A stretch of 64,000 nt of DNA from Polytrichum commune (lineage: Eukaryota; Streptophyta; Polytrichopsida; Polytrichales; Polytrichaceae): the NCBI GenBank assembly GCA_950295325.1, contig OX485806.1, forward strand, positions 52,695,169 through 52,759,168, in the 5' to 3' direction. Positions within the stretch are counted from its first letter, which is position 1. Each line of letters opens with the position of its first letter. Both the position numbers and the translations under genes were made by a program. Shown here piece after piece: positions 2,897 through 31,689 of the stretch. The notes below the pieces were generated by a model. It was given only the letters and a program-made list of their open reading frames with translations, did no database searches and had not been told where the DNA came from.

Positions 2897-3628
2897 AAGT
2901 TCGTTGTAGACGGATCGGTCTGTCGAAAAGAGGAGAGAAACTGGAACAATTAGGATTCCGGTCCGGAGGTCATTTCCGGCGTGTAGTGGGAAGGAAACCT
3001 CATTATTCCAGATACCTGGGTAACGTCCATGTGAGATAGCCGTCGTTAGGACTGGGTAAGATCAGGGAGGTGCCGGACTTACGCCATCCAACCTTCTGAA
3101 GAGGTCTCACAGTCTTTGGGCGGGGTAATCCGGAAAGTGGCATGGATCGCCCAGTTATCCCGGATTAACAGATCTCCTGCTGAATCTTGACATTTTTTTT
3201 GTTGTAGTTCCGGGAACCATTCGGATTCTTTGTGTGACCTACCAGGAAAGATTAGGCCGATCTGGACTGGTTGTGAGAGAAATCCGGATTCTGACCCTAT
3301 AGGGACGTTTTCACCGGATGAACCAAATCATCATTGGAGGTAGGATGTAGATAGGTAGGTATTGAGGAAAGATGAACATAGGAGTAAAACTTAATTATAA
3401 AGGTTCAATCCGGAAAGCAAGTCCCGGGACAAGGGCTTCCAAAGGACTATCCGGATCCGGAAAGCTGATTTGGCAAGTGGTCGATTTTCAAGCAGGAAAA
3501 AAAGATCCCTAACATCCTGCACTTCACAAAATCCATGGACGATACTCAGATCATCCGGACAGACCGGATTAGGCACTGAAAAACGCCTATCCGGAAACTT
3601 TTGGTATTTGTGTGCTCCCACAAATGGG
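2897..3628. other. CCGG-rich segment without a gene, possible gypsy LTR
   Basis: No convincing gene is present. The stretch is rich in TCCGGA, CCGGAT and ATCCGG words, like the gypsy fragment at 1-967, so it may be the LTR or 3' end of that same element, now separated by the chromovirus. This is inference from word usage only. It ends where the 138-bp satellite starts. Confidence 0.3.
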
Positions 3629-8677: not shown

Positions 8678-8697
8678 GGGAAACTTAGTAGTGTGAG

Positions 8698-10023
8698 TGT
8701 GAGGCCAAACCGCCCACCTTTAAGCGTCCTAGTCCGGGTGAGGAAATGGATCTCACATTCGTGTTCCCATGACTCCATCTTACAAACCTCGTGAGAATCC
8801 ATCACATTTCCCATCAAATCTTGCACACCAATTTATTCCATAATGAAAGTACAAGCATTAAAAAAATGCTCTTCCCTATCTATCCCCTTCTCTCTACACT
8901 AACTTACACACCAACCCTCACTCACTACAAAAAACTCATCCCTAGACCACCCTCTAATGATGGAGCAATACCCCCATTAAGTCCTTGGCCCTTAGCCTTG
9001 GCCCTACCTAGTCCGTAACCGGCTCGTGCCCGGTCTTCTACCTAGTGCAATGACCTTCTCATACCTGGTCTTCCCTCCGGGCATCAGTCCTTACCCCGCA
9101 ACAACAACTATTTGCATTTCAGTCCGAGCTCCTGGATTCAATCCGAGCTCCTGGATTCAATCCGAGTTCCTTACCCAGCAGCAGCAACTACTTGCATTTC
9201 AATCCGAGCTCCTGGATTCAGTCCGAGCTCCCCAACAGCTGCAACTACTTGCATTTCAGTCCGAGACCCTTGGATTCAGTCCGAGCTCCTGGATTCAGTC
9301 CGAGCTCCGCAGCAGCTGCAACTACTTGCATTTCAGTCCGAGCTCCCCAATAGCTGCAACTACTTGCATTTCAGTCCGAGCTCCCCAGCAGCTGCAACTA
9401 CTTGCATTTCAGTCCGAGCTCCACAGTAGCTGCGACTACTTGCATTTCAGTCCGAGCTCCTTAGCCCTTCTTAATATGGCCGTCCCCTACCTAAATTCCA
9501 CTAAGTTCCCCTACTTACTTCCCCTCCTAAATTCACTAATTCCACTAAGTCCCCCTACTTAATTCCCACATTTTTTTCCAATCTCTAAGAGCTCAACCTC
9601 CTAGAGAAGAAAAAAAAAAGGAGAGGAGGAAGAAGAGAGGGAGAGAGAAGGACGAAGAATAGAGGGAGAGAAAAGGGGAAAGAGAGGGGAGGGCACCCAA
9701 GACCACAAACCCCCTCAACCTTCTCCTACTTAGTAGGTCCTTATCCTATCCACTAAACCCTCACCCCTAAACCAACACAAACATGTTCTAAATCAAACAT
9801 TTAAATCCAAAGCACTTCTCCTTGCTTCACCAAACACTACTCACTCAACCAAAACACTTCCTAATGTCACTAAGCTTCTACTTAACTACACAAAATAGGC
9901 TTAAAGCCTAAAACATAAACCACACCAAGCCTCACTCTTTTTATACTTTTGATTGTTTCAATAACACTTCAAATGCAATTCTAAAAACATAAAACAAATA
10001 TGAGCAACCATTTTGGGCTCATA
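8698..10023 (+). mobile_element. Solo LTR-B2 inserted in the MULE terminal repeat
   Basis: This 1,326-bp insertion starts TGTGAGGCC and ends GGGCTCATA. It is flanked by GTGAG on both sides (8,693-8,697 and 10,024-10,028). The uninterrupted site survives in the inverted repeat at about 31,670, which confirms the insertion. Like B1 it has CCCACC near its start and no recognisable gene. It contains a short minisatellite and an A/G-only tract at about 9,605-9,690. Confidence 0.85.
9105..9465 (+). repeat. Minisatellite inside LTR-B2 (19- and 38-bp periods)
   Basis: Tandem copies of a 38-bp unit carry 'CAACTACTTGCATTTCAGTC' and 'CGAGCTCC'. They are mixed with a 19-bp unit 'TGGATTCAGTCCGAGCTCC'. 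The other LTR-B copies lack this expansion, so it arose in this copy or its sublineage. The long open frames here follow from the repeat and are not a gene. Confidence 0.85.
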
Positions 10024-10170
10024 GTGAGCATAGAGTGGAGAGCGGAAATTGGAGAGCGGAAAATTTTGAATTTGTTGGGTAAAAATAGGACAAGCGGTGC
10101 CTATTTCCGTAGAATATATAGATAGTTTGAATTCAATTTGTTGGAAAGGCACCCCAATCTCGTGGAGATA

Positions 10171-11099
10171 TTAACCCAACGTAGGTCGAGGAACAAAGGG
10201 AACCTAAAGAAGTGGAAGAATGTAGTTGTTATCAAAGATCTTATAGTCTAGGTTTTGAAATGGTTTCATATTAAATTAGGGCTGACGTCAGGAATTGAAA
10301 TCAAACATCAAAACATATGATGAAGGAGAAGTTGAATGGTACGGTAATCTTTCCAAGGACTCTTACATGTCCAGAATTCCCATATACAAAATATTTGATT
10401 GGCCGAGATAATGTAGGTGAAATTAGGTGCCAAAGTCAAGACTTACAAAAATGTGTATCTAGTTCAATTTGCTATAAACAATTTACTCCAGAATTAAAAA
10501 AAATGTGCGCACAAAAATCCATTTGGCTCCTCCACGTGTCTACACCCTATCGGCCGGGCATGTCCAATACGGTGCACCTGGATGAAAGCTCATGCCATAG
10601 AACTCCACCGCAAAGAATGACATCTCCAATTCATCCCTTAGCTTAGCCAATTTCTGCAATTTTAAATCCCTCGAGTCCGACATAAGAATCCTCTGTGAGC
10701 TGACGTGGCGGCTATGTGAGAACCACATCAAATTTAGTTTAAATTAAGTGATGAGGTTATGTTTGCGTGGCAAACAAACCCTTGTGACAACATTGGGATC
10801 CATCGCGTATTCATATGGAGCCAAACGAAGAGCATTGTACTCCGCACTTTTATCCACAATCATTTTCCATGCTTTGCAAGATAGCCTCAAACTATGGATT
10901 AGCAAGAAACGGAGTTGGGTGTCCAATGCCGTCTTTGCACCCGTATCCACCTTTGCGGCACCCACCAACAAGTTTGGGACCAAGACCGCCAATTGTACAT
11001 CTTTGTCCAAATACAATACAAGTGGCTCCATTACGTGTGATTGGCGCGATTTTCCCCACCCTGATACGTCATCCAAACCACAAACATTCATCATATGAA
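10171..11099 (-). other. Unrecognised reading frames between terminal repeat and satellite
   Basis: Minus-strand frames at 10,744-11,154 (136 codons) and 10,540-10,731 (63 codons) are not satellite and may be exons of a degraded gene. The second contains a charged segment, 'LKLQKLAKLRDELEMSF', that could form a short coiled coil. I recognise no family. Positions 10,285-10,345 resemble 13,095-13,140, the flank just beyond the cargo gene's 3' end. This implies that everything between arrived by duplication or insertion, because copy 2 lacks it. Confidence 0.35.
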
Positions 11100-12060
11100 T
11101 GAAAGTTGAAAATCTGGCTCTCGGAAGTGAGAGCATCGAAAAAAACACAACCATTCAACACCTGAATCAAAGTTGAGAATGTGGCCTACCCATGTAGGCT
11201 CTCGGAAGTGAGAGCATCCAAAAACACACAACCATTCAACACCTGAATCAAAGTTCAAAATCTGGTTCACACATGTAGTCTCTCGGAAGTGAGAGCATCC
11301 AAAAAAACACAACCATTCAACACCTGAATCAAAGTTGAGAATGTGGCCTACCCATGTAGGCTCTTGGAAGTGAGAACATCCAAAAACACACAACCAATCA
11401 ACTCCTGAATCAAAGTTGAGAATCAGGTTCACACATGTAGGCTCTCGGAAGTGAGAGCATCCAAAAAAACACAACCATTCATAACATGAATCAAAGTTGA
11501 GAATGTGGCCTACCCATGTAGGCTCTCAGAAGTGAGAACATCCAAGACAACACAACCATTCAACACCTGAATCAAAGTTGAGAATCTGGTTCACACATGT
11601 AGTGTCTCGGAAGTGAGAGCATCCAAAAAAACACAACCATTCATAACATGAATCAAAGTTGAGAATGTGGCCTACCCATGTAGGCTCTCAGAAGTGAGAA
11701 CATCCAAAACACCACAACCATTCAACACATGAATCAAAGTTGAGAATCTGGTTCACTCATGTAGTGTCTCGGAAGTGAGAGCATCCAAATAAACACAACC
11801 ATTCATAACATGAATCAAAGTTGAGAATGTGGCCTACCCGTGTAGGCTCTCAGAAATGAGAGCATCCAAAAACACACAACCATTCAACACCTGAATCAAA
11901 GTTAAGAATCAGGTTCACACATGTAGGCTCTCGGAAGTGAGAGCATTCAAAAAAGCACAACCATTCATAACATGAATCAAAGTTGAGAATGTGGCCTACC
12001 CATGTAGGCTGTCGGAAGTGAGAGCATTCAAAAAATCAAAAAGATTCATCACCTAAATCA
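11100..12060 (-). repeat. 81-bp satellite with two alternating subunits and a hairpin
   Basis: There are about 11 units of exactly 81 bp (for example starts at 11,116, 11,197, 11,278, 11,359, 11,440 and 11,521). Subunits with 'GTGGCCTACCCATGTAGG' alternate with subunits holding 'CTGGTTCACACATGTAG', so the higher-order period is 162 bp. Each unit has GCTCTC-GGAAGT-GAGAGC, a six-base-pair stem. Because 81 is divisible by 3, open frames with a 27-residue repeat appear. They should not be read as protein. Confidence 0.9.
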
Positions 12061-12294
12061 AATTTGAGAGTCCAAACACTCACCAGGATGGAGTAGCATA
12101 ATGCTTGTGCTTGGATTGCTCACATGTGAAAAGGGTGCACGGGGATGTGACAATAATTGGCAGGATATATGCTTTGAATGCATAAGATTAATGGGCTCAA
12201 TCTTAACTTAATTAGGGGATCCTACCTAGTACACCACATAATGACCTGGGATGCAATATATAACATTATGGCTATAATGCCACATGCAAAAATC

Positions 12295-13025
12295 TAGATC
12301 AAACCCCCAACCCGTGGACCCTCTCGCAACCGAGAGGGTCCCTACATAGTCCAACCCCTTAACTTGAAAAATATGAACCCAACAAAAAAAGGTTCAACCC
12401 GTCAACCCCAACTTGTCCTACCCGACACTATCAACCGAACTAGTCCACACAAGTTTAGACTATCTATACATACAACTCTCTAGTCCATACCCAACTAGGC
12501 CGAACTAGTCCATGACCCTCTCGGATCTTAGACGGTCCTATTCCAGCCCATTTACAACTAGGCCGAACCTGAACAAACAAGAAATATCTAGTTAAACATA
12601 CAAGCCTCACAACATTCCACTCAAAATCTGGCCCTAATGAGCCTACTCCATGACCCTCTCGGATCCAAGAGGGTCCTATTCCAGCCCATACACAACTAGG
12701 CCGAACCAGTACACAAAAGAAATATCTAGTTAAACATACATACCTCACAACATTTCTATCAAAATCTGGTCCTTACACACAACTAGGCCAAACCAGTCCA
12801 AACAAGTTCTACCCACCTACACATACAAAGTACCTAGACTTGAAGTCAAAATCTGGTCCTAATGCCCTCCAAGTAAAGACCCTCTCGGATCCGAAAGGGT
12901 CCAAAAATGTGGTGCAAACCTCAACCCCTGGACCCTCTCGGTTCCGAGAGGGTCCAAAAATGTGGTGCAAACCTCAACCCCTGGACCCTCTCGGTTCCGA
13001 GAGGGTCAAATTCCAGCCAAAAAAC
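12295..13025 (-). repeat. 138-bp palindromic satellite, small block in copy 1
   Basis: A few degenerate units in minus orientation have palindromes near 12,318, 12,513, 12,652, 12,880, 12,933 and 12,985. The last two are CCCTCTCGGTTCCGAGAGGG with TT at the centre, and they lie in a short duplicated 50-bp block ('AATGTGGTGCAAACCTCAAC'). The block lies between the 81-bp satellite and the 3' end of the cargo gene. Confidence 0.85.
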
Positions 13026-13574
13026 AAACTAGTTGAACCTATCAACCAACTAGTTGAACATATGTACAAATACAAGTTGTCAACCTTCTAGAGCAATTGA
13101 AATCAAACAACAAAATAAGATGAAGGAGGAGTTGAATGTGGTTTGAAAAAGGGACATGGAAATTCAACAAATGAAATTATAAAAAACTTAAACATAAAGA
13201 ATACATAGGAAATAGAGCTTCCAAACGCATGAGGCGTAGTCAAGAACTTGGAGTACCATGTCTATCACTATCCTCGCCCTGGTCGGCCTCTATATATAGG
13301 AAATCCAAAACTAGTTTGTTGAAAGGGTGGGTGCGACTAAGAGGTGGAGACGGTGCTTCCGCCAATAGATGGGCAAGGTCAGCAGCATACGAAGGAAGCC
13401 CAAATGTTGTCGAAGGGGTTGCAAACATGTCAACATTAAGGACACAAATTGGGCTCTCAATATAAACTCTAAAAATATAAAACGAGAAAACAAAAAAATT
13501 AGCACATGACAAAAATCCGGAATCGAGAAGATAGAAATCCAGGCAAACAAGTTAGAAGCCAAGAACGAACTTAC

Positions 13575-14575
13575 GCACACAGCAAATCGAAATTGCGCTT
13601 CGCCATCTTCCGGGGAGAAAGAGCAAAAACCGACCCTCGTTGTGGGGCAGCATGCTAAGAAGTGTCTTCTAGCTCAGTCTCACGCTTGGGGAGGAGGATG
13701 GACTTGAAGATGTCGATATCCGACTCAAGCGCCATAATATGGCGTTGAATGGATCGACATGCAATGACGGAACCTCCTAGAAAAACAAAATCCAAGAAGG
13801 TGAGCATAAGGGAATGAATGGGAAATGGACAAGCAAAAAACAATAAAAAAAGACATGAGAAACAAAGAGAAGAAAAACCAACCAAGGCCACATTGTCAAT
13901 CCATGATAATGTCATCCTTGTCAGTGAGGGCGGAGAAAATGATGGAGAAGAACTCGGGGCACTTTTCACGAGCACCTCTTCAAGGCACCCCGTTTTCCCT
14001 CATCGACTGGTTCTTCAAATCGGCGAAGCTATTGAGCCAACCATCTCTCTTGAGATTGTAACCCATGTCTTCAAAGTCCGAGGTCCGGACATTCAAAACA
14101 AAATCGTTACACACGAGCACCTTGATGAAGAACTTGTGAGTCTATAAGAAATGAGAAGGTTAGAATGAAGAATACAAAAATGGAAGGAAAAAAAACAAGA
14201 ATACAAAAGGATAAGGCTAGAAATGACTTACCAAGTCGGATGGATTAGTGAGCGATTGGAGATCGAGGTCATTTATACAAACCAGTCTTTGGCAACGTAG
14301 AAGTCCTTTGTATGTGCCCAGTCATATATAGATCTAGACACCTTAGTATCAGCGACGTGTGCAAAGACAAAAACGTCGTCGTCATAGAGGTTTGCGCTTG
14401 CGAAGGCAAACAAAACCTCAAAGTACGTGGAAGAACGTATGTTCCACACAAGAACATTCGAGGATGATGACGAGATGTCCGACACACGGAGGTTCTCGGG
14501 CATATCTGCAAAGTGTAGATCAAGCCCTATATGCACCTTAGGCTTGGTATTATGACGAGTACGACCCGCTCCAAC
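13575..14575 (-). other. DNA methyltransferase-like exons of cargo copy 1
   Basis: Exons 14,232-14,575, 13,883-14,141 and 13,575-13,776 splice in phase. They give 'GLDLHFADMPENLR' (motif IV position), 'DDDVFVFAH', 'GAREKCPEFF' and 'IIMD-QCGLGGSVIACRSIQ' with 'ALESDIDIFKS'. This order, with the catalytic motif first and the AdoMet-binding motif last, is that of beta-class (permuted) N4-cytosine/N6-adenine methyltransferases, whose motif I region reads D-x-F-x-G-S-G...A...R...E-x-D. Two Trp codons of copy 2 read TGA here. The catalytic position reads D-M-P-E rather than D/S-P-P-Y/W, so even an intact protein of this type might not methylate. Confidence 0.4.
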
Positions 14576-15689
14576 CTGGAAATAAAAAATCCATAGAAAA
14601 ATATAATAAAACAAGTGTTGAATTAGAATGGATGAACGAGAAAACAAGAGAATGTCGCATAGACCTTAGTAAAGAATTCTTGGATGTGGCGGTAAGGGGG
14701 AACCTTGGACCACATGAGATCCTCTATGAGGTCCCCCATGTCAACATTCTCAATCAAAGAAAGAGAAGACAATTTCTCCGAAGAAATTGCGGAGGTACTC
14801 GGAGCAACGACCTTCCTCTTGCGCGGCATGGAGGGAATGGTGATACCGCTATGGGAAGGAACGGGAACATGGTTACGAGAAGGGGCAGAAGGAGTTGCCG
14901 TTGGACTTCCGACAACCGTGGTGGCTGGAGCTGCAGTGCCCTGAACGGAGGCCTTGGTGAAAGAACGGGTGGAGACTTGACTGGAGGCCACCCTCTTGCC
15001 TTTGCCCTTGGCCTTCACCGATGCAACCTCCTTGTCATTGGTGGGAGGAGCCGGATTCTCATCTTCTTCCGGCTCTTCCTCCAATTCAATTACCTCATGG
15101 ACAGAGGAAGCGAAACTGTCGTAGAGGGGTTCTTCTACGTCGGGAACAAATCCACGAGAACAATCCAAGTACCAACCACCAGCCATCAAATGCACGCGTG
15201 GAAATTTTGCAAGTTGCATGTGCGTGTACATACAAAGATTTGAGTTGTTATCGATCCAATCGTCAAGGAATGACGGCAAGGACGAAGAAGGGAAGAGCAT
15301 TCTTTACGACAAACTCACGGTGAATGTACCTACACATCGGAGAACATGAAAACAAAGACATGGAATTGAAATAATAAAAACAAACGAAGATATGAAGGAG
15401 AAAATAAAAACAATGATAATTACCGGTAAGCAATGCACTTGATAGCTATGGGACCTTCCTCGAACTCCATGAGATCGAGCCCTTTGGTGAATTTCAAGAC
15501 TCCCTTGTCATCAAAATACATCCGAAAAGCCTTGTCCCACAAAATGAGCCTCCAATGCTTGATAAAATGAGCAGGTTGCAAAACATCTTCCGTAGAAACT
15601 TAGTTGATGTCCATGGAGCATTCATTTTCAAATGAGGCGATCTCACCCTCAACCCCTTTCTCCAATTAAGATGAGAAAAACATGAAGTT

Positions 15690-15806
15690 AGAAATCTGGT
15701 CAAGATCTGGTCCTAATGCCTAACTAAACATACAAAGTATCCAACACAGAAGGCAAAATCTGGTCCTCATGCCCTCAACAAAAGACCCTCTCGGATCCGA
15801 GAGGGT
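15690..15806 (-). repeat. Single palindromic satellite unit inside the cargo gene
   Basis: One unit with the palindrome CCCTCTCGGATCCGAGAGGG at about 15,785-15,804 and 'AATCTGGTCCT' flanks lies between two cargo exons. At the matching place in copy 2 the satellite occupies about 1.4 kb and several exons are gone. Confidence 0.85.
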
Positions 15807-16762
15807 CGTCCTCTAGAGCACACCAAACTATTTCAACATCACAACCGAATATCACAATTTCAAAAAGTATAAGGTATTGGAGCACATGTGCCCAAAAAGA
15901 AGCTTTGTGAAGCCAGTCATCGAGGGCTTTCTCGCGAAGAAGAAGAGAAGACGGGAACTTGTTAATGGTTTTGACCTCGGTGGGGGAATTCCACCACCAA
16001 AGCCATCTAGCCTTAAAGGAAGCATCCACATGTGTAGTTGCCACCTTTTGCAGTTTCTCAATAGTCATATCCGAGACGAGGAAGGTGGAGAAATGACGGT
16101 CAATCTGCAAAAATAAATAGTATAATGTAAGGGAATATACATAAAACACAAGTAGGAAAACACAAAGGTGCAAGCAAACAAAAATTAAAGAGGTGCAAAG
16201 AGTATCTTTTGGAAGAAGTCATCACCATTGTCCTTGTGGGCAACGGAGATGAACTTTTCAAAGCTCCGAGATCAAATACTTTTGATCAATCTATCTTGGA
16301 TTTTTGTCATAGCATCCCAAATCCCAAGAGCAGATCTAAGAGCCTCGTGAGTGGCCTCACGGTATAACCGTGCAGCAGTATCCGCCGAATTGGAGATCTT
16401 TCATTAAAACAAACAGAAATGTGTGTAAGGATTAATGCACAAAACATGAGAAAAGAGAAAACTAGAGGTAGGAGAAATATTACCTTGTACAAGAACTTGA
16501 CGAAGACGTCCAATGTGAAGGGATACAAGGTAGGGCTCTTCTCCATCTTAGCCTCGCATATCTTGTAGTCGTCAACAGAAATGAGGTCCTTGAATTCCTC
16601 AAGCTTCATTTTTCCAAATGTACGAATGCGAAGCAATTTGGCGGGGAGGTTGTTCTTAACATGATCGTGCTCCGTGGACCTAAAAAACAAAGTAATGAGG
16701 GTCCAGAAAACAATGAAACATAAAAAAGAAAACGGAAAAAAATGAAAGAAACGTGAACTTAC

Positions 16763-17340
16763 CAATTGATGTCATTCATGGCATTCAAGAAGATGGCGGT
16801 GCAACTTCTTGGATCAACGACAATATTGTCAACAGAGATATGCCAATCTTTATCCAACGAATGATGCTTATTAATGTGCCTCCACCAAGCTGACAAACGG
16901 TGGTTCCCCTCCCACACGTAGAACATCTTGCCAGAAAGGTGAGCAAGGTCAGGGTCATTTTGGAGCATGGCGTCGAATTCCTTATTGGCCTCTTGCCATA
17001 ATGAACTCCAAGAATTGTGGATGTCATCGGAGACATGGAGTACCTCATTGAGGTTGTTGTAGGGAGAGACATACAAGGCTCGGTCACCGTCACGGTAACC
17101 CATTACGAACTGATTTTCCAACCGAGCGACATCAACCTCGTTGGTGGGACGAACAAGTGGAAGACATCGCAAGCGGCACAAAGGGATAGAGAAACGCGAC
17201 TTATGAAAAGGTTTCATTCGAACACCGTGAATCACAGCATTAGAGTTTTTTTTTTGCGATCTCTGAATCAAGAGCTCAGTCTCCTCTGGGTTGGACTCAT
17301 CAAGAGGATGCAAAGAGTCGGTTGCAACTGGTGCATCATT
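16763..17340 (-). other. ParB-like domain exon of cargo copy 1
   Basis: This exon is open throughout and ends at GT (AACTTACC on the plus strand). It has an N-terminal basic stretch, then 'SIPLCRLRCLPLVRP', 'VARLENQFVMGYRDGDRAL' and 'VWEGNHRLSAW' about 70 residues later. This layout, beginning with strand-Arg-Pro, then 'L...F..G', then G-x-H-R-x-x-A, is that of the ParB/sulfiredoxin nuclease-like fold. In bacteria that fold serves chromosome partitioning and is also fused to phage and plasmid DNA methylases. Copy 2 keeps the same motifs, with 'VWEGNHRLSAW' unchanged. The similarity is by motif and spacing, not by search, so it is a hypothesis. Confidence 0.45.
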
Positions 17341-17589
17341 CTACAAGGGCCACCATAAAAACATTAGGTAGTGCCAAAATTATTGAAAATACAATGAAAG
17401 CGAGGCGATGTTTGGGATACGATGAAAACTCAAGGATTGAGGCAATGGCTTATAATCATACCAGAGGAACCTCCAATTGAACATTATGGTCATCCATTGA
17501 GGGATCCACCGATAGAATGAGATCCATGGATTGTGATTCCTACACAAATGCAAGAAAACATTGAAGTCATAATCTGATCCTAATGTCCT

Positions 17590-20530
17590 ATCCCAAGACT
17601 ACAAAACATACATGCCTCACAACATTCCACTCAAAATAAGGCCATTATGAGCCTACCCATGACCCTCTCGGATCCGAGAGGGTCCTATTCCAACCCATAC
17701 ACAACTAGGCCCAACCAGTACACACAAGATATATTTAGTTGAACATACATGCCTCACAACATTTCAATCAAAATCTGGTCCTTATGAGCCTAGACCATGA
17801 CCCTCTTGGATCCGAGAGGATCCTCTTCCAGCCAACTTACAACTAGGTCGAACCAAAACAAACAAGAAATATCTAGTTAAACATACATGCCTCACACACA
17901 TTCCACTCAAAATCTGGCCCTTATGAGCCTACCCCATGACCCTATCGGATCCGAAAGGGTCCTCTTCCAGCCAACTTACAACTAGGCCGAGCCAGAACAA
18001 ACAAGAAATATCTAGTTAAACATACATGCCTCACACACATTCCACTCAAAATCTGGCCCTTATGACCCTACCCCATGACCCTCTCGGATCCGAGAGGGTC
18101 TTCTTCTAGCCCATTTACAACTAGGCCGAACGAGAACAAACAAGAAGTATCTAGTTAAACATACATGCCTCACACACATTCCACTCAAAATCTGGCCCTT
18201 ATGACCCTACCCCATGACCCTCTTGGATCCGAGAGGGTCCTATTCCAGCCAATTTACAACTAGGCCGAACGAGAACAAACAACAAATATCTAGTTAAACA
18301 TACAAGCCTCACAACATTCCACTCAAAATCTGGTTCTTATGAGCCTACCCCATGACCTTCTCGGATCCCAGAGAGTCCTATTCAAGCCCATTTACAGCTA
18401 GGCCGAAGTAGAACACACAACAAATATGTAGTTAAACATACAAGCCTCACACACATTCCACTCAAAATTTGGCCCTTATTAGCCTACACCATGACCCTCT
18501 CGGATCCGAGAGGGTCCTCTTCCAATCCATTTAGAACTAGACCGAACCAGAACAAACAAGAAATATCTAGTTAAACATACATGCCTCACACACATTCCAC
18601 TCAAAATCTGGCCCTTATGAGCCTACCCCATGACCCTCTCAGATCCGAGAGGGTCCTCTTCCAGCCCATTCACAACTAGGCCAAACCAGTACACAAAAGA
18701 AATGTCTACTTAAACATACATGCCTCATACACATTCAAATCAAAATGTGGCCCTAATGAGCCTACCCCATGATGCTCTCGGATCCGAGAGGGTCCTATTC
18801 CATCCCATACACAACTAGGCCGAACCAGAACACACAAGATATATCTACTTAAATATAAAAGCCTCACAACATTCACATCAAAATCTGGCCCTATTGAGCA
18901 TACTCCATGACCCTCTTGGATCCGAGAGGGTCCTATTCCAGCCCATTTACAGTTAGGCCGAACCACAACACACAAGAAATATCTAGTTAAACATACATGC
19001 CCATACACAACTAGGTCAAACCGGTACCCACAAGAATTATCTACCTACACATGCATACCTCACAACATTCCATTCAAAATCTAGTCCTCATGGCCGACTC
19101 TCAACTATAAGCCGAACTAACCTACACAAGTCAACCCTATCTACACATACATGCCTCACAACATTCACCTCAAGATCTGGTCTCTTGGCCGCCTCCCAAC
19201 AACTAAGCCGAACCAGTCCACACAAGAAATATCTACCTACACATGCATATCTCACAACATTCCACTCAAAATCTGGTCCTCATGGCCGACTCTCAACTAT
19301 AAGCCGAACTAGCCTACACAAGTCAACCCTATCTACACATACATGCCTCACAACATTCACCTCAAAATCTGGTCTCTTGGCCGCCTCCCAACAACTAAGC
19401 CGAACCAGTCCACACAAGAAATATCTACCTACACATACATACCTCACAACATTCCACTCAAAATCTGGTCCGCATGGCCGACTCTCAACTATAAGCCGAA
19501 CTAGCCTACACAAGTCAACCCTATCTACACATACATGCCTCACAACATTCACCTCAAAATCTGATCTCTTGGCCGACTCGAAATAACTAAGCCGAGCTAG
19601 TCCACACAAATGATATGTACGTACACATACATGCCTCACAACATGCCACTCCAAATCTGGTCCTTATGAGCCTACCCCATGACCCTCTCGGATCCGAGAG
19701 GGTCTTATTCTAGCCAATACGCAACTAAGCCGAACTATTCTACACAAGGCAACCCTATCTACACATACATGCCTCCCAACACTGATCTAAAAATCTGGTC
19801 CCTTGGCCGACTCGTAACAACTAAGCCGAACTAGTCCACACAAGTGATATCTTCCTACACATAGTGGTCAACATTGAGCTCACCCAAAACTATTCACCGA
19901 AATAGTATGAAAGGGCCCAATTCCAGGCTATACCCAACAATTCGAACATACCAGAAAATTCACTAGACACAAGTTGAACCTATGAACACACACAATCTTC
20001 ACAACCCAAACTCAAAATCTGGTCCTTATGGCCTACCAACACACAATCAACGAAGTAGTCCACACAATTCGAGTCTATGTACCCATACAAATTTTACAAC
20101 CTCAATTCAAAAACTAGTCCTTATGGCCTACCCAACACTATCAACCGAACTAGTGCACACAAGTTTACCCTATCTACTCATACAACATACACAACCTTTA
20201 ATTCAAAATCTAGTCCTTATATCCTTCCCGACACTATCAAAGTTTACTCTATCTACTCATACAACATACGCAACCTTGAATTCAAGATCTGGTCCTCATG
20301 TCCTTCTCGGCACTATCAACCGAACTAGTGCACACAAGTTTATCCTATCTACTCATACAACATACACAACCCTGAATTCAAAATATGGTCCTTATGTCCT
20401 ACCCAACACTATCAATCGAACTAGTCCACACAATTTTGCCTTATCTACACATTGAACATATACAACCTTGAATTCACAATCTAATCCTCAAGCCCTCAAT
20501 AAAAGACCCTCTCAGATCCGAGAGGGTCGT
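17590..20530 (-). repeat. Palindromic satellite between divergent cargo and transposase genes
   Basis: About ten 138-bp units (for example 17,797, 17,935, 18,073) carry the palindrome within 'CATGACCCTCTCGGATCCGA'. After reverse complement they align with the units at 6,189-8,677 over the half following the palindrome ('CCAGATTTTGA', '...GGAATG'). From about 19,060 to 20,480 the array shifts to subtypes lacking the palindrome ('GGCCGACTCTCAAC', 'GGCCGCCTCCCAAC' alternating, then a roughly 117-bp type), and it ends with one palindrome unit at about 20,505-20,528. The array occupies the whole shared upstream region of the two divergent genes. Confidence 0.9.
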
Positions 20531-21295: not shown

Positions 21296-24200
21296 TTGTC
21301 CATGGCTTCCTCATCCACAATGCCATGTGTATCCGAAATGATTGAGCTCCGTGCCAATGGCCTCGGAATCCCTATTCTTTTTCCCGTAGATGCAAACGGT
21401 TTTGTTTATGTCCTTCCCTTCACCTTAGTATCAGGTTTTCGTTGCAATATAGTACAATATGGGTCGAACGCGAGATTTATGATAGTGATACTTCTTTGTT
21501 GTCATTGACCATGCGTGAGAATCCTAGGGTTGCCGACAACGGATCTTCAATGTGGGAACTCTCCACTGGGAAATATAGGGTGTACGGACTCCCAGGTCCT
21601 TGCACGAATGTATCCACGGAAATCCGTATCCCTCTCCATTCCTTTGCTTCCACTTTCAATACTCCTCCTTTGGTCAAAGTTAAGATTGAACCCGGTATGC
21701 ACACTGTCATACATCTTTCCGATTCCTCTGATGATGATAAGCCCCCCGTATCCATTCCCATTCACAAGCCATCCCCATCCTCCTTCCGTTCCACCTTTGT
21801 TACCCCGCCACTTCTGTCTCCTCTTCCTCCATCCCCAGCCAAACCCCTGAATTCCATTCTTCAATGTCTACGTACTCTTGTTTTCATGCCCGGTATGAAG
21901 AACATCCTCAAGAAGCTAGATTATGACGCCTTACAAATTGAAGATGTGAATTTCCTGCCGCCTCACTTTGATGGGAATCGGATGTTTGTTCCCCCCCGTT
22001 TTCCTTCCTCTCATACCAAGGCCAAATCCATGGATGGCATGGACAAATGCTATGACGGCCATGTTTGGACCAAAACCTAAACCACCAATATCACCAATGA
22101 CATGGGCCTTGCTTTTCGCTCCTCTAGTTGCGTTGGCCACCTCCAATGCCAAAATCATGTTTGCGATTACCTCCAACGTGCTCATCGCACTTCCCTGGTC
22201 AATGAAACTGATTTCGACGGCTTCACAAAGGAACCCTTTCCCGTTGGTGGTTCCTTCCTTTTGGGCTCCACTCTAATGTGCACAATCTGTAAGGATCCCC
22301 CCACGTGCATTGCACCATGCCACGCCAAAATCTTCTACGTCCACGGAAATGACATCACTCAGCGTGCGTGCATTCATCTGGGCAACCATCGCCACCTAGT
22401 CAAGGTCGGCAACTGCAGAGATAACCGCCAGCGTATCGACGCCCTAATCGAGGAGCACGTCGAGCGAACGCCTCAAGCCACTCATAGCAAAATTGTCCTT
22501 GAAGCCAGCAAGGACCTTGTGGGTTCCTCCTCCGCAATGATAGTGATCTTCATCAACTTCTTTCCTTGGAAGAATTTGAGCCCGTTTTTTATCATTGCAA
22601 GGAGTTGAATTCCCCCCACCTCCGTAACAAGGTTACCACTTTCAAATACTTACGTAGGTTAAGGGTTATGGATGGCATCGCCAAGCTTCCAGGTGTCAAC
22701 ACCTGGGCCTATGTTCAGCACAATCAATTCCCCGGCCAGGGTGACGAGACAAACAAAATTTTCGTTTTCAAGATGTTTGAGGTCGGCCCTGGCAGTGGGG
22801 TCGACTTGGTTAAGCGCATGCAACTTGGCGAGGATCTCGAGCATTCTTGGATCATGTCCGAGCATGTCAAACACGTCGCCAAGTGGACCACCATGGCCTG
22901 CCACGTATACGACGGAACCTACTAGCGCGTCATGACCATCGCTTGCTGCGATTTCCAATCCAAGGACAAGGATGCTCAAGTGTTTTTCTGGCATAACCTC
23001 AACCACGTCATGGCCCGCCATGGAATCCCCAAGCCCCACTTCAAAGGCTTCATGGCGAACAGTGTACAAGCCAATTGGAATGCCGTGAGGATTGTTTACG
23101 GGTCCAGAGATCCAAAGGTTCCCATCGATGGGCGTGAGAGAACCTGCTACTTCCATTGGACCCAGTCTTTGGAGAAACACACCAAACTCTATATCAAGTA
23201 CAATTTGCAAGACCAACACAAATGTCTCTGCCTCCAATATCGCGACGCATCCTCTATGCTCGAGGCGGAGACTAGGTACCTTGCCATCAAGGCCTAGTGG
23301 GCTTCGTCTAACTGCACCTCTGAGGAGGGGTTGAAACACCTTCAACTTTGGCTGGCCTTCTGGCACTTTCGATATGGACAATGGGGTGGCTTTATGGAAT
23401 TGGTGCGTCTTTAGTGTTATTAGTCTTTGCTTTTTGTTTTATCTTTTTTGTCAAGCTTTGCTTATTTCTTGCACTGCCATTCCATTTCGCAAGAGAAAAT
23501 CATGACGGCCGAGGAATTCTCACAAATGCCCAATTGCAACCTTGCCGAATCCATTCACAACAAATGGCTTTAAGGCATGTTGGACCATGCATGCTATCAC
23601 CAAGAAGAAATGCACTGCCAAAATCGTCTCCAACTCCAAGAGCACCCCTGCCTTGGCATACCTTGGAGTTTGGAACTATTACAAATTTATAACACCTAAA
23701 GTCGAGAAGTTTTTTTTTGCCCCAGCGACATTGAACGTTGTGTCAAAGGATCACGTCGCAAGTGGATCGACAAATTCTCTGCAGACCAAGAACGACCTCC
23801 AATCCCGCCCGTGTGGCCTGTCAAGTTTGGTGCCAACCTCACTCGTCCGGAGATCCTGAAGCTGGAGAATGCCCGCTTTCAACAGCCTAAAAAAAAAACA
23901 TCACGCCCACTCGCCTCTTCAACACATTGGCTCCTCCCCTTGATCTTTCCGTAGTGGACGTTCCAGCCAACCCAGACTCTTATCCTTCGTCTAGGCAATC
24001 CAAGACTACGAGATGGTCTGCCACCGCACCATCAACAAAACAAATGCAGATGGTGGCATCTGCACGAGCTATGGACGGGACCATATTGAAGGTCACCATG
24101 ATTCCACGCCCTAGATTTGGTTGCGTTATCATGTTGCAGTCCAAACCTCCACCTACTCAATCCATTTACCAACTTATAGTTAGTTCTCTGCCCGAGTGTA

Positions 24201-24403
24201 ATTGCCCGGCCTTCAAGGATATGATATCAAAGTTTGGCCACAAACAAAATTCTTTCCTGCATTGTAAGTACCTCTACTTCATATTTGTCAAGGTCTCTAA
24301 TGTAAACCCCGAAGTTGACTTGTTCATTCACGCCCCCATTTTTAGCTTCAATGAGGTCACACTCATTCTCGAAGGGGGCCTCTTGATAGAATCTACTTCC
24401 TAG
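21296..24403 (+). pseudogene. MULE transposase with Cys/His N-domain and SWIM-like end
   Basis: The likely start is ATG at 21,299-21,301 (MASSSTMPCVSEMIEL). A frameshift near 21,460-21,480 is followed by an acidic Ser/Asp patch. A Cys/His-rich domain follows at 22,102-22,500 ('SSCVGHLQCQNHVCDYL', 'CTICKDPPTCIAPCHAKI', 'HLGNHRH'), like the WRKY/GCM-type DNA-binding domains of MULEs. The DDE core is at 22,566-23,297, with 'VYDGTY' holding the first Asp, 'FMANSVQANW' where the second acidic residue appears to be Asn, and 'CYFHWTQSLEKH'. A probable intron at about 23,400-23,490 precedes 'MPNCNLAESIHNKW'. A SWIM-like end, 'PECNCPAF...HCKYLYFIF', lies at about 24,190-24,290. Stops at 22,924, 23,295 and 23,571 inactivate it. 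It would have excised and inserted the element by binding the terminal repeats. Confidence 0.72.
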
Positions 24404-25489
24404 AATTCCTCTCATCCAAGCACTACATTGTATCTTGATAGATGTGTCCATTTCTGGACCTCTTGTGAACTCATAATTGTTTGCTATAATAAATAAAATC
24501 TCATGGATTATTTTTATTCCCTCAAAATATTGTATTATAATACTCAATTGCGCCATGTGTTTCTCTCCAATTACATGTTCAATTTAACATGCCTACTATG
24601 TCTATCAAATCTACTTCCGTGTTACCAACCTCCTAGATGTTTCATCGTCCCTTCTTGATGGAGGTGGACCCGGTCGAAGCAAATCAACGTACAAAACCGT
24701 TTTATCCTTCATTCGATCCTTCAAAGGATGACGATGCGGCGATTATCCTTTCATTCTCTCGCGAAACGACAAAGGCCTCAAAGATTCGCCTACCACCTTG
24801 ACCTCCTTCACATTGTCATTCGACTTCTCTTCATCCAACTCAGCTGCATCATCTGCGGCACTATTCAAGCACCTTGTGACGTTCTTCTCCAGCACATCCG
24901 CTCACATTTTATCTTTATTTGCATAGCGTTTATGCTCCTCCTGCATCCTCCACCTCCATGCTTGTGTGGACTGCGAAAATGGAGTCAGCTCGTAGTTATC
25001 ACCATACCGATTTGCAGCACCTATGTCATGATCCGGCGATGAATTAAATGGAACATGCGGATCTCCTAGACTTCTAATCTTCTTCTCCCATCCTAGGCCA
25101 GTGAACATGTCTCTATCCTCTCCCATTGTATGCATATGTCTCTACATCCGTATTGGGTACGAGTCTAACTTATGTCCTCATATATATTCAGCTCAACATA
25201 ATCTCTTCGACAACAAACAATAATTATTGCAGTCCAAGCTCTAGAGTTGACTTACACATAGGACAAACATAAAAGTGATGGAATAAAAACGAAGCAAGTT
25301 GGTCGCCCTTTGTATTTTGATTGACTCATTCTTCAATATACCAATTTCGATAAAATCATTTCATTTTTTTGGGTTCACCCTTGGTTTTAATCATATACTT
25401 ATTTATTTTATCATAATATTTATATAAATTTAGCACATCCCGGTTTCCAAATTTAATGAGACCATTTCAAATTCAGGTCGTTTTCATTT
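24404..25489. other. AT-rich tail of copy 1 without recognised gene
   Basis: I see no recognisable gene. Short frames at 24,728-25,042 (plus) and 24,902-25,135 (minus) resemble nothing known to me. The sequence becomes AT-rich toward the terminal repeat. Confidence 0.4.
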
Positions 25490-25663
25490 ATTTTTGGACC
25501 TATACATTCTACGGAAATAGGTCATACATTTTTACTATTTTTGGAAGAATCTGGAATATTTTGGGTATATTCTATTCTATTAAACAATATTACTAAATTT
25601 AGACTCACAAATTTTCTATTTTTACTACCTTTCCGCTCTCCGCTCACATAGAAGTGGCGTCCG
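25490..25663. repeat. Right terminal inverted repeat of copy 1
   Basis: Reverse-complemented, this region contains GTGAGCGGAGAGCGGAAA and, further in, ACCTATTTCCGTAGAATGTA. It parallels the left repeat (GTGAGC..., GAGAGCGGAAA, then CCTATTTCCGTAGAATATA). The outermost 20 bp are diverged from the left end. It is followed directly by the satellite in register. Confidence 0.6.
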
Positions 25664-26445
25664 CACTAGACGCTGACCCTCTCGGAACCGAGAGGGTCTT
25701 GGGTTGGGTTGCTTGGACCAAATTTTGACTTGAATAGGTTGTAATATGGATGTATATATATGTTGCCTACTAGGGTGATAACTTGGAACTCTTTTTGAAT
25801 GCACTAGAGGCTGACCCTCTCGCATCCGAGAGGGTGTTAGGTTGGGTTGTTTGGACTTGATTTTGACTTGAATGGGCTTTAATATGGATGTGTATATATT
25901 TTGAGTACCTAGATTCATATGTACAAATCGTACGGGTATGCTCTAGAAGCCAACCCTCTCGGAACCGAGAGGGTGTTGGGTTATTTGCTTAGACCAAATT
26001 TTGACTTGAATGGGTTCCAATATGGATGTGTATATATGTGGACTAGCTAGATTCATATGTTGAAATTCTTTGGGAATCCACTAGAGTCCGACCCTCTCCG
26101 AACCGAGAGGGTTTTGGGTTGGGTTGGTTGGACCAGATTTTGACTTGAATGGGTTGTAAAATGGATGTCTATATATGTGGACTACCTAGATTCCTTTGTT
26201 GAAAGTCTGTGTAATGTACTAGAGGCCGACCCTCTCGGAACCGAGAGGGTCTAGGGTTGGCTTACTTGGACCAGATTTTGATTTGAATGGGTTGTAATAT
26301 GGATGTGCACATATGTTGACTAGCTAGGTTGATATATTGAAATTGTTTGGGAATGCACTAGAATTTGAGCCTCTCGGTTCTGAGAGGGTCTTGGTGTAGT
26401 ATGTTTGATTCGGATCTTCACTTGAGGTTCTAAAACTTGTATGTG
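25664..26445 (+). repeat. Palindromic satellite of outer element, resumed after copy 1
   Basis: Five to six units in plus orientation start at CACTAGACGCTGACCCTC, continuing the unit broken at 8,677. Palindromes lie at about 25,677, 25,816, 25,955, 26,093, 26,229 and 26,371. They fade into the first cargo exon of copy 2 at 26,459. Confidence 0.9.
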
Positions 26446-27289
26446 TGAATTTTTGCAGGGATCACAATCCACGGATCTCATTATGTCGGAGGCGCCCTCA
26501 CTGGAGGACTATAATGTTCCATTGGAAGTTCATGTGGTATGAATTGGAGCATTATTTCATCCCTTTTGTCAATAGACGGAGCTCCTGATTCGGAGATCAC
26601 AGAAAGAGGACTCTAATGTTGTGATTCACCGGGTTCGAATCAAACCTCTTCTTAAGTCGCGTTTCTCTATCCCACTATGCCGTTTGTGTTGTCTTCCACT
26701 TGTTCGTCCTATCAACGAGATTGATGTCGCTCGGTTGAAAAATGAGTTTGTCATGGGTTACCGTGAGGGTGACCGAGCCTTGTCTGTCTCTCCCTATGAC
26801 AACCTCAATGAGGTACTCCATGTCTCCGATAACATCCTCAATTCCTGGAGTTCATTATGGCAAGAGGCCAACGAGGAATTCGGCACCATGCTCCAAAATG
26901 ACCCTGACCTTGCTTACCTTTCTGGCAAGATGATCTACGTGTGGGAGGGTAACCATCGTTTGTCGGCTTGGTGGAGGCACATTAATAAGCATCAATTGCT
27001 GGATAAAGATTGGCATATCTCAGTTGACTGTATTGTCGTGGATCGTGAATGACATCAATTGGTAAGTTCAGTTTTCTTTTCCTTGTTTTTTATCCTTATT
27101 TTATGTTGCATTGTTTCTTTGATTCTCATTATTGTGTTTTTTAGGTCCACGGAGCTTTTTTTGGGCACAGGTACTCCACTACCTTCTTCAGCATAGTAAG
27201 ATTAGATTTTCATTAGAATGTTGTCTAATATGTATGTGTGAATAGGTTGAAGATGTGTGGACAAGCTTGGTTGATATGTTCAAATAGCT

Positions 27290-28770
27290 TGACTATGCAC
27301 TAGAATTCGACCCTCTATAAAACCGAGAGGGTTTTGATTGCGGTTTTGTGGTCCAGATTTTGACTTGAATGGGTTGTAATATGGATGTGTATATATATGG
27401 ACTAGCTAGGGTGATATGTTGTAATTCTTTGGGAATGCACTAGAGTCCAACCCTCTCGGATCCAAAAGGGTCTTGGGTGGGGTTACTTGGACCAGATTTT
27501 GACTTGAATGGCTTGTAATATGGATGTGTATATATGTTGAGTACCTAGATTCATATCTTGAAATTCTTTGGGACGCCACTAGAGTCCCACCCTCTCCAAG
27601 CCGAGAGGGTCTTGGTTGCGTTTGTTTGGACCAGATTTTGACTTGAATGGGTTTTAATATGTTTGTATATATATTTTGACTAGCTAGGGTGCTAACTTAA
27701 AATTCTTTTGGAATGCACTAGAGGCCGACCCTCTCGGATCCGAGAGGGTCTTGGTTGCGGTTGTTTTGACCAGATTTTGACTTGTATGGGTTTTAATATA
27801 TATTTATATATATGTTGACTACCTAGGGTGATATCTTGAAATTCTTTTGGAATGCACTAGAGTCCGACCTTCTCAGATCAGAGAGGGTCTTGGGTTGGGT
27901 TGCTTGGACCACATTTTGACTTGAATGGGTTGTAATATGGATGTGTTTATATGTTGAGTACCTAGATTCATATGTACAAATCGTACGGATAAGCAGTAGA
28001 GTCCCACCCTCTCAGATCCGAGAGGGTTTTGGTTGCGTTTGTTTGGACCATATTTTGACTTGAATGGGTTGCAATATGGATGTGTTTATATGTGGACTAG
28101 CTAGATTCACATGTTGAAATTATATGGGAATCCACTAGAGTCCGACCTTCTCGGAACCGAAAGGGTCTTGGGTTGGGTTGCTTGGACCAGATTTTGACTT
28201 GAATGGGTTGTAATATGGATGTGTATATATGTTGAGTACCTAGATTCATTTCTTGAAATTCTTTTGGAATGCACTAGAGGCCGACCCTCTCGGATCCGAG
28301 AGGGTCTTGGTTGCGTTTGTTTGGACCAGATATTGACTTGAATGGGTTTTAATATGGTTGTGTATATATTTTGACTAGCTAGGGTGATAACTTGAAATTC
28401 TTTTGGAATGCACTAGAGGCCGACCCTCTTGGATCCAAAAGGGTCTCAGTTGCGGTTGTTTGGACAAAATTTTGACTTGAATGGGTTGTAATATGGATGT
28501 ATATATATGTTGACTACCTAGGGTGATATCTTGAAATTTCGTTGGAATGCACTAGAGTTCGACCTTCTCAGATCCGAGAGGGTCTTCGGTTGGGTTGTTT
28601 GGAACATATTTTGACTTGAATGGGTTTTAATATGCTTGCATATATATTTTGACTAGCTAGGGTGCTAACTTAAAATTCTTTTGGAATGCACTAGAGGCCG
28701 AGCCTCTCGGATCCGAGAGGGTCTTGGTTGCGGTTGTTTTGACCAGATTTTGACTTGTTTGATAGTATTG
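27290..28770 (+). repeat. Satellite that replaced exons in cargo copy 2
   Basis: About ten 138-bp units lie between the truncated exon at 27,145 and the exon at about 28,850, where copy 1 has exons 3-5 and a single satellite unit. Palindromes are more decayed than in the upstream array, but several are perfect (for example about 27,733, 28,289, 28,704). Confidence 0.88.
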
Positions 28771-29901
28771 GGTAGGACATTAGGACAAGATTTTGACTTC
28801 AAGGTTTTGAAGATTGTATGACGAGATAGGTTCAACCGAATTTCTATCTTTATGTTTGTCTTATCTTAGTTGGAGAAAGGGGTTGAGGGTTGAGATCGTC
28901 TCATTTGAAAATGAATGCTCCATCGACATCGACAGGGCTTTTACGGAACATCTTTTGCAACTTGCTCATTTTGTCGAGCATTGGAGGCTCATTTTGTGGG
29001 ACAATGCATTTTGGGTGTATTTTAAAGACAAGGGAGACTTGAAGTTCACCAAAAAGCTCGATCTCATGGAGTTCAAAGAAGGCCCCATTGCTATCAAGCG
29101 TGGTGCTTACCGGTAATCATATTTGTTTCTCTTTTCTCCTTCATATCTTCGTTTGCTTTCACTTATTCCACTCCATTTCTTTGTTCTCATTTTCTTCAAT
29201 CTCTATGTACATTCACCGTGAGATTGTCGTGAAGAATGTTCTTCCCTTCTTTGTCCTTGCCGTCATTTCCACGCGTGCATTTGGTGGCTGGTGGTTGGTA
29301 CTTGGATTGCTCTCGTGGATTCATTCCCGACGTAGAAAAACCCCTCTACAACAACCTCGCTTCCTCTGCGCTTGACGTTATTGAATTGGAGGAAAAGCCG
29401 GAAGAAGACGTGAATCCTCATCCTCCCACCAATGACAAAGAGGTCCCCCCAGTGAAGGTCAAGGGCAAAGGCAAGAGGGTTGTCTGTAGTCAAGTGTCCA
29501 CCCGTTCTTTCACCAAAGCCTCTGTTCAGCGCACTCCAGCTCCGGCTACCACGGTTGTTGGAAGTCCAATTGCAACTCCTTCTGCCCCTCTTGGGACCTT
29601 GTTCCTGCTCCTTCCCATAGCGGTGTCACCATTCCCTCCGTGCCGCGCAAGAGGAAGGTCGTCGCTCCGGATACCTCCGCAACTTCTTCGGATCAGTCTT
29701 CTTCTTTCTCTTTGATTGAGAACGTCGATATGGTAGACCTCATAGAGGATCTCATGCGGTCCAAGGTTCCCCCTCCGGCTTACTGCCGCATCCAGGAATT
29801 TCTTACTAAGGTTTATCTGACATTCTCTTGTTTTCCTGCTCATTCCATATAATTGAACACTTGTTTTTTTCCTAAATTTTCTTTGCATTTTGGCTCTGCA
29901 T

Positions 29902-30919
29902 GTTGGAGCGGGCCATACTCGTCCGAATACTAAGCCTAAGGTTCACACAGGGCTTGATCTATTCTTTGCAGATGTGCCCGAGAACCTCCGTGTGTCGAGC
30001 ATCTCGTCATCATCCTCGGATGTTCCTGTGTGGAATATACGTTCTTCCACGTATTTTGAGGTTTTTTTTGCCTTCGCAAGCGCAAACCTCCATGACGACG
30101 GCGTTTTTGTCTTTGCACACGCCGCTGATCCTGATGTCTCTAGATCCATTCACAACTGGGCACATACAGAGGACTTCTACGTTGCCGAAGACTGGTTTGC
30201 CATGAACGACCTCGATTTCTAATCGCCCACTAATCCTTCCGAGTTGGTAATTCTTTTCTAGCCTTATCATTTTTTAATCTTACATTTTTTTTCCTTTCAT
30301 TTATATATTTCTAATTCTACCGTACGCATTTCTTACAGACTAGCAAGTTTTTCATCAAGGTGCTTGTCCGTAATGAATCTGTTTTGAATGTCCAGACCTC
30401 GGACTTCGAAGACATGGGTTACAATCTCAAGAGAAATGGTTGGCTCAAAAACTTCGCCGATACGAAGAACCAGTCGATGAGGGAAGACGGGTTGCCTTGG
30501 ACAGGTGCTCGTGAAAAGTGCCCCAAGTTCTTCTCCATCATTTTCTCCGCCCGCACGGACAAGGACAATATTATCATGGATTGGCAATGTGGCCTAGGTT
30601 GGTTTTTCATCTTCTTGTTTTTCATGTCTTTGTTTTTTAATGTCTTACTTTCTTTTATGTTCTTTTCATTTCCCATTCATTTCCCTATGCTCATCTTCTT
30701 GCATTTCGTTGTTCTAAGAGGTTCCGTCATTGCATGCCGATCCATTCAACGTCATATTGTGGCGCTTGAGTTAGACATCGACATCTTCAAGTCCATCATC
30801 CTCCCCATGCGTGAGTTTGAGCAAGATCACATTTCTCAGGATATTGCCCCACAACGAGGGTCGGTTTTTGCTCCTCCTCCCCGGAAGATGGCGAAGCGTA
30901 ATTTTGATTTTCTGTGTGC
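29902..30919 (+). other. DNA methyltransferase-like exons of cargo copy 2
   Basis: This is the better-preserved methyltransferase-like region. In order: 'GLDLFFADVPENLR', 'FAFASANLHDDGVFVFAH', 'GLPWTGAREKCPKFFSIIFS', 'DNIIMDWQCGLG', then after the intron at 30,598-30,717 'GSVIACRSIQRHIVALELD'. Motif X-like (EKCP...FF) immediately precedes motif I, as in beta-class enzymes. Motif I reads D-W-Q-C-G-L-G-G, not D-x-F-x-G-S-G. The first exon ends at a TAA (30,220-30,222) that copy 1 does not have at that place. Confidence 0.42.
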
Positions 30920-31499
30920 ATAAGCTCGTTATTATTTTCTAACTTGCTTGCTTGCATTTCTATCTTGCTTGCTTGCATTTCTATCTTCTCGGATCGGAAT
31001 TTTTGGCTTGTGCTCATTTTGTTTGTTTGTGTTTTCGTCCTAGATGTGCAGAGTTCAAAATGAGAGCCCCATTCGTGTCCTTAATGCAGACATGTTTGCA
31101 ACCCCTTCGACGACGTTCGAGCTCCCTTCGTATGCCGCTGACCTTGCCCATCTTTTGGCGAAAGCACCGTCCCCACCTCTTAGTCGCACCCGCCCTTTCA
31201 ACGAAGTAGTATTGGATTTCCTAGACATAGAGGCCAAACAGGGCGAGGATAGTGATAGACACGATAGTCCAAGTTATTGACTATGTCTCGTGCGTTTGGA
31301 ACCTCAATCTCATATGTATTGTTTATGTTTAAGTTTTCTATAAAAAAAATTGTTGAATTTCCATGTACCTTTTGCAAACCCCATTCAACACCTTCTTCAT
31401 CTTATGTTGTTGTTTGAATTCAATTGTTGACGTCAACCCTAATTTAACTCTTAACCTTTTCAGAACTTCACTACTTGGACCTTGATAACAAATACATCC

Positions 31500-31689
31500 C
31501 TCCACACCTTCATAATCGAATTAGATTGTGTTAAAAAATCCACGGGAATGGGGTACCTTTTCAACAAATTGAATATAAAGTATCTCCAAAATCCACAGTC
31601 ATAGGCACTCCTTCTATGAAAATCGCCCACCAAACTTTGAATTTTCCACTCTCCAAACTCCGCTCTACGCTCACACTACTAAGTTTCCC
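31500..31689. repeat. Terminal inverted repeat of outer element (copy 2)
   Basis: This is the inverted match of 8,678-8,697 plus 10,024-10,170, ending CTACTAAGTTTCCC at 31,689. It preserves the empty site of solo LTR-B2 (CGCTCACACTACTAAG). The flanking 9 bp (ACTGCCATT) have no partner because the far end of the element is lost. Confidence 0.75.

Follow-up and report, generated by a model that had tools for sequence, protein, structure and literature searches.

VANDALs are Mutator-like transposable elements (MULEs), and VANA is their transposase. As far as the available parts of the published accounts go, VANC proteins bind motifs that are repeated in tandem within the VANDAL encoding them, both in its introns and upstream, and induce the loss of silent marks (PMC5735166; PMC10398659). 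Within the same limits, Sola1-1_Ec32 of Ectocarpus has, opposite its transposase, an accessory gene whose 1104-residue product combines ParB-like and DNA methyltransferase domains, and the products of such ParB plus methyltransferase genes in algal transposons have been proposed to bind the element that encodes them and to modify it (PMC12477816). ParB proteins of bacteria are thought to load at parS and to spread as CTP-bound clamps, and the closely related Noc and ParB read sites that are not the same at two bases (PMC7333895, in part). Here we describe a transposon family with a ParB-like accessory gene and arrays of palindromes in a 64,000-nucleotide stretch of Polytrichum commune DNA (hereafter the window; C4:52695169-52759168, where C4 is the 59-Mb contig OX485806.1), with genome-wide scans over the 408-Mb assembly of 64 contigs. 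On balance we favour the reading that this DNA transposon family carries a sequence-specific DNA-binding accessory protein together with its predicted binding sites, the protein acting as a family-specific anti-silencing or self-activating factor.

The window holds two copies of the element, whose features are collected in Table 1. Copy 1 (8677-25662) is a near-complete element with ends resembling terminal inverted repeats, nested within the satellite array of copy 2, and its insertion separated the two portions of that array. The insertion site is a 138-bp satellite unit, so that the empty site can be read in the adjoining units. In copy 1 the accessory gene of about 11 exons, on the minus strand, and the transposase, on the plus strand, are divergent, and a 3-kb repeat array separates their starts. 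In copy 2 a single terminus and no transposase were seen. The two gene copies are inverted relative to each other and 79-84% identical over the three longest blocks, and stops interrupt both of them as well as the transposase of copy 1. The order of satellite, gene and terminus is common to the two copies, as had been claimed for this locus, and the element belongs to a family that recurs in the genome at no fewer than 169 exon-1 places.

The elements are most likely DNA transposons of the MULE type. A 9-bp duplication, equal at 8 of 9 positions, flanks copy 1, as in MULEs, although this was seen at one copy only; a search of two other copies for a matching left duplication found none beside a terminal repeat. 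The element ends share TGTGAGCG.AGAGCGGA and are alike only in part, the left-end type being present in three elements and the right-end type in four. By eye, the transposase has D..D..CxxH and CxC..CK.LYF motifs, which we take to be MULE-like, and it gave no relevant Pfam match, even for the open 746-amino-acid frame of a relative. Of the MULE transposase, two termini and 9-bp duplication described earlier for copy 1, the termini and an 8/9 duplication are present, and "MULE" is a name given by resemblance. A probable solo long terminal repeat (LTR) interrupts copy 1 within its left terminal repeat, so that about 1.3 kb of the span earlier assigned to the element is foreign to it.

When exon 1 of copy 1 was used as a DNA query, 232 candidates were obtained, of which 40 were scored (83-100% identical), and the ten best copies outside the window were retrieved together with their 10-kb flanks (20 stretches). 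In each of the ten, exons 1-5 follow one another in the expected order, and a palindrome array begins about 300 bp upstream of exon 1. Every exon block was present in 8 of the 10; C4:43911667 lacked exons 9-10 and C4:52514694 lacked exons 7-10 within the stretch. An array following the last exon present was seen in nine and the palindrome in intron 4/5 in seven, while a divergent transposase part accompanied the gene in eight and the transposase core in seven (no transposase was found within 10 kb at C4:56453062 and C2:67691245). A random captured gene fragment is ruled out by the gene and array kept together in all ten. The argument of the original prediction that the cargo is not such a fragment therefore holds, and among the copies examined the cargo and the satellite were not mostly apart from each other. 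The association was also approached from the transposase, for which 40 copies of 693 candidates were scored. At least 16 of these had a listed exon-1 match in divergent orientation within 30 kb, in three the nearest exon 1 was otherwise arranged (one being copy 1 of the window, whose nearest match is exon 1 of copy 2), and 21 had no listed exon-1 match nearby. The exon-1 list of 169 places, drawn from two genome searches, is incomplete, and these counts are lower bounds. In it, 21 of the 150 scored rows of the second search (query P0104, below) were omitted, as they repeat places of the first. The chance of any transposase-exon-1 pairing was 4% over all contigs and 14% in the crowded part of C4. 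The 40 scored copies nearest to the gene branch of the window are mostly located at one end of C4 (41-59 Mb), which might be a sex-linked or low-recombination region; the matches of the P0104 search were spread over all large contigs.

Exon 1 of the accessory gene has the ParB/sulfiredoxin N-domain fold, as judged from a fold predicted with a 56-sequence alignment and from structure comparison; the 56-sequence fold was used in place of a two-sequence prediction, which reached a predicted local distance difference test score (pLDDT) of 31. The exons are under purifying selection, exon 9 having been left out of this analysis. Searches with exon proteins matched 245 proteins (the best 120 listed) and 98, respectively, and the search with the full-length protein scored nothing, probably since the database frames are exon-sized. 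Neither a relevant Pfam model nor any NCBIfam model matched the cargo protein. No Pfam match to a ParB profile was obtained, and among 27 members a single one hit a ParB-like PHROG, with an E value of 0.35. Scans of viral contigs and bacterial genomes detected no relative of the protein, and a PDB sequence search gave nothing useful.

The gene had been called ParB-like and methyltransferase-like. The structure comparison bears out the first half of this description, and the second half found no support. A profile comparison with YhdJ and four phage enzymes gave a probability of 0.2%, within the range of column shuffles, the profiles being shallow (effective sequence numbers of 1.8 and 2.7) and the test of low power. 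Reading the exon consensus by eye, we did not see the motif [DNS]PP[YFW] of beta-class DNA amino-methyltransferases, and ADVPEN occupies its expected place. A DNA methyltransferase identity is retained as a resemblance only; the idea itself agrees with the published Ectocarpus gene.

The palindrome GACCCTCTCGGWWCCGAGAGGGTC or a near variant (up to 5 mismatches) occurs 57 times in the window, mostly once per satellite unit. Its arms are conserved at 0.94, compared with 0.754 in the other 114 aligned columns of the unit. In the five main arrays 48 palindrome sites were found against about 49 units from Tandem Repeats Finder, and therefore the selection of sites by motif explains little of this conservation. 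Over the 408 Mb there are 835 exact copies of the palindrome and 0 of its reversed control, and this abundance is not due to chance. Of the first 50 of the 835, 48 have a listed gene copy no more than 15 kb away, compared with 1% for a random place on C1; these 50 form seven clusters on two contigs, two loci holding 25 and 18.

A distant relative, P0104, was used as a second query and gave 1256 candidates. The 150 that were scored fall into several groups with identities of 44-68%, and many of them have open exon-1 frames of equal score on different contigs. From these groups we examined 13 copies outside the ten, each with exon 1 and about 1 kb or more upstream. L036, which belongs to the clade of the window, has six sites of the window palindrome. 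At least one palindrome was found in 8 of the 12 diverged copies, and branch palindromes of the types GACCCTCTCGG-, CACCCTCTCGG-, GAGGCCTCGG- and GGGTGYCGTT- stand at the same place. In L030, GAGGCCTCGGATCCGAGGCCTC is present 26 times, and next comes a divergent transposase, in which a frame of 746 residues is open. L039 and L040 have GAGCCCTCGGATCCGAGGCCTC five times each, L029 has GGGTGYCGTTWACGGCACCC four times, and L043 has AGCATTCGGCRCCGAATGCT twice together with a 76-bp repeat containing CCCACGGGTGTTCACCCGTGGG. CACCCTCTCGGTTCCGAGAGGGTG occurs five times in L035 and once in L037, each with one further shorter site. The palindrome types follow the exon-1 gene tree, in which the rows with GACCC palindromes make up a single clade of 13 (95/96), and the pair with CACCC and the three rows with GAGNCC are grouped at 100/99 each. 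Symmetry is kept while the sequence changes, both arms changing together, and a CGG..CCG core is shared by 6 of the 8 palindrome forms. Within arrays, single-arm changes numbered 66 and double-arm changes 5, so that drift of the units alone does not yield the symmetric differences between branches. The site patterns were defined after the loci had been viewed, and the off-diagonal cells of the comparison alone are informative; all but one of them are zero. At least two palindromes appeared in 1 of 500 shuffles.

The change of the palindrome from branch to branch suggests, at the level of sequence, that the accessory protein reads the DNA of its own element. A dyad in duplex DNA explains well why the arms differ together between branches. 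The sites of ParB, Noc and KorB are palindromic, and by analogy a dimeric ParB-type protein encoded next door would be a natural reader; a dimer would bind the palindrome, as those proteins bind dyad-symmetric sites. Acting from the introns and from the array that separates the two divergent genes, the protein would control the chromatin or transcription of the element and, by its likeness to VANC, would most likely serve as an anti-silencing or self-activating factor specific to its family. A speculative physical means would be a ParB-like clamp that spreads in its nucleotide-bound state. A complete ParB-parS-like system, in which a nucleotide-gated clamp would load at its own palindromes, slide and keep the element unsilenced or marked, with protein and palindrome specificity changing together and the branches blind to each other, is a tentative proposal that we hold to be doubtful.

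Several observations weigh against a palindrome-reading accessory protein. The N-domain of ParB is a nucleotide-binding one, and no ParB-type helix-turn-helix was identified following it. The gene and the array are co-inherited, so that their distributions should match even if the two were functionally unconnected; the kept symmetry is the sole argument beyond co-inheritance. The 13 copies were chosen to represent the groups and do not make up a random sample. In 4 of the 12 diverged copies no clear palindrome was found over about 1 kb: the 75-bp tandem repeat of L033 contains none, L038 has units that by eye are decayed, and L041 and L042 showed none over that distance. L034 has a single AATCCCACGGATCCGTGGGATT. 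Of 31 control 1-kb tiles of the window, three had at least two palindromes, which came from another repeat. Finally, a second block of the satellite unit, ACCAGATTTTGACTTGAATG, shows about the same strong conservation as the palindrome.

The palindromes might instead be sites of the transposase or of a host factor, or an enhancer of the divergent promoters, the ParB-like protein doing something else. The arrays adjoin the transposase as well as the gene, and MULE transposases bind element DNA near the ends. However, arrays are also found beyond the end of the accessory gene, within its introns and inside copy 2, where no transposase of its own was seen, and the type of palindrome follows the exon-1 tree; we regard this explanation as unlikely. 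It is still less probable that the arrays are ordinary satellites produced by unequal exchange, with hairpin-forming units that copy themselves and the gene as a passenger. The number of units differs widely among the arrays of the copies, and related units without the palindrome exist (19007-20480 in the window; L033), but the positions of the arrays around the gene are fixed in the ten fetched copies, the diverged branches have new palindromes at the same place, and the CGG..CCG core shared by 6 of the 8 forms and the purifying selection on the exons also speak against this reading. RNA hairpins in transcripts, such as a small-RNA source or a splice signal, are highly improbable and were set aside: the palindromes are located in 5' leaders and introns and a 24-bp palindrome can fold, but changes that keep G-U pairing on the sense strand are not preferred (20, compared with 26 that would do so on the opposite strand and 46 of other kinds), and what the 6 of 8 forms share lies around the centre, partly in the hairpin loop.

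Table 1. Features of the two element copies in the window (positions within the window)
Feature	Positions	Strand	Remark
138-bp satellite array of copy 2, left portion	6189..8677	+	split off by copy 1; about 18 units, one 24-bp palindrome each
Left target-site duplication GCACTAGAG	8668..8676		
Left terminal repeat of copy 1 (GGGGAAACTTAGTAGTG)	8677..8693	+	end shared with copy 2 and the genomic copy C4:53078496
Probable solo LTR (TG..CA), foreign to the element	8694..10021	+	junctions, 5-bp duplication TAGTG; presumed class
Left subterminal region of copy 1	10022..10340	+	about 70% identical to subterminal region of copy 2
81-bp tandem repeat with imperfect related palindrome (CTCTCGGAAGTGAGAG)	11116..12069	-	
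Palindrome units directly downstream of copy 1 gene	12505..13007	-	
Copy 1 of ParB-like accessory gene, exons 0-10 (our exon model)	13240..17527	-	stops break frame
Lone perfect palindrome, intron 4/5	15784..15807	-	
Exon 1, ParB/sulfiredoxin-type N-domain	16761..17340	-	conserved GNHR motif
Array between divergent gene and transposase	17604..20530	-	12 palindrome sites with up to 5 mismatches (17661-20528) and related palindrome-less units
Transposase of copy 1, degraded; motifs read as MULE-like	21300..24403	+	in-frame stops
Right terminal repeat of copy 1 (GGACGCCACTTCTATGTGAGCGGAGAGCGGA, read inward)	25610..25662	-	
Right target-site duplication GCACTAGAC	25663..25671		8/9 match to left
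Upstream palindrome array of copy 2, right portion	25663..26394	+	
Copy 2 of accessory gene	26446..31280	+	without exons 3-4; broken by stops
Palindrome array within copy 2, between exon 2 and exon 5	27295..28757	+	10.5 units
Right end of copy 2: subterminal region and terminal repeat	31381..31689	+	ends CTACTAAGTTTCCC

The block ACCAGATTTTGACTTGAATG is also present in the palindrome-less repeats at 19007-20480 and in L033. The probable solo LTR contains short GAGCTCGGACTGAA repeats, and weaker matches to it were seen near other copies of the element. Elsewhere in the window, pieces of gypsy-like or copia-like polyprotein frames were recognised by eye at 310-1020, 33584-35767 and 54885-56157. 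An unrelated repeat of about 1 kb occurs in both orientations at 967-1931, 42269-43965, 46515-47461 and 52956-53917 (87-93% identical); it bears its own near-perfect palindromes, GGGCGCTGTCCCGGGACAGCGCCC and CCATGAGCTATGCGTAGCTCATGG, and portions of it match within the L030 array too (2514-3202).

The comparison with the described systems is confined to what the available parts of the cited papers state. As in VANDAL/VANC, the transposon encodes, beside its transposase, a protein paired with a short tandem motif in its own noncoding DNA, binding here being predicted; there the motif lies in introns and upstream of VANA21, and motif and protein differ between families (PMC5735166). Here, too, the motif is tandem, family-specific and located in the noncoding DNA of the element, with 4 of the 12 diverged copies as exceptions. 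The VANC21 motif, however, is the 9-base non-palindromic YAGTATTAY, whereas here a 20-24 bp palindrome is combined with a ParB-type domain, of which the available part of the VANC account makes no mention (PMC5735166). With Sola1-1_Ec32 the family has in common an accessory gene that runs opposite to the transposase and encodes a protein of about 1,000 residues with a ParB-like domain. The Ectocarpus element differs in being a Sola element of a brown alga with a methyltransferase, while here the target-site duplication is 9 bp and methyltransferase homology is undetectable; candidate target sites co-diversify with the gene here, and the available part of the Ectocarpus account names no target site (PMC12477816). 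ParB-parS, Noc-NBS and KorB-operator systems share the ParB N-domain fold with the present family (PMC7333895). Unlike those of the bacterial systems, the present gene is eukaryotic, multi-exon and within a transposon, and no helix-turn-helix was recognised in its product. Palindromes near the gene, here candidate sites, are a further feature in common with ParB-parS systems.

The class of ParB-type accessory genes is thus not new. To speak of a new kind of self-protecting or self-marking element, as the original prediction did, was an overstatement, since VANC proteins that bind their own motif (PMC5735166) and ParB plus methyltransferase genes (PMC12477816) were already known, as far as those sources were available. 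In the literature on plant or MULE ParB genes we found neither a pairing with branch-specific palindrome arrays nor such a gene in a MULE-like element, and only the Ectocarpus report was pertinent. The family is a testable combination of VANC-like and ParB-accessory-gene systems. In the available parts of the accounts found, ParB-type proteins of eukaryotic transposons are named from their domain content, and their target is not stated. The genome of P. commune has many branches of this family, most of the examined ones with their own candidate site beside the gene, which makes a binding rule open to testing. If the reading is true, the strategy of VANC, a transposon-borne regulator co-evolving with tandem target motifs, would have arisen with an unrelated, bacterial-type domain.

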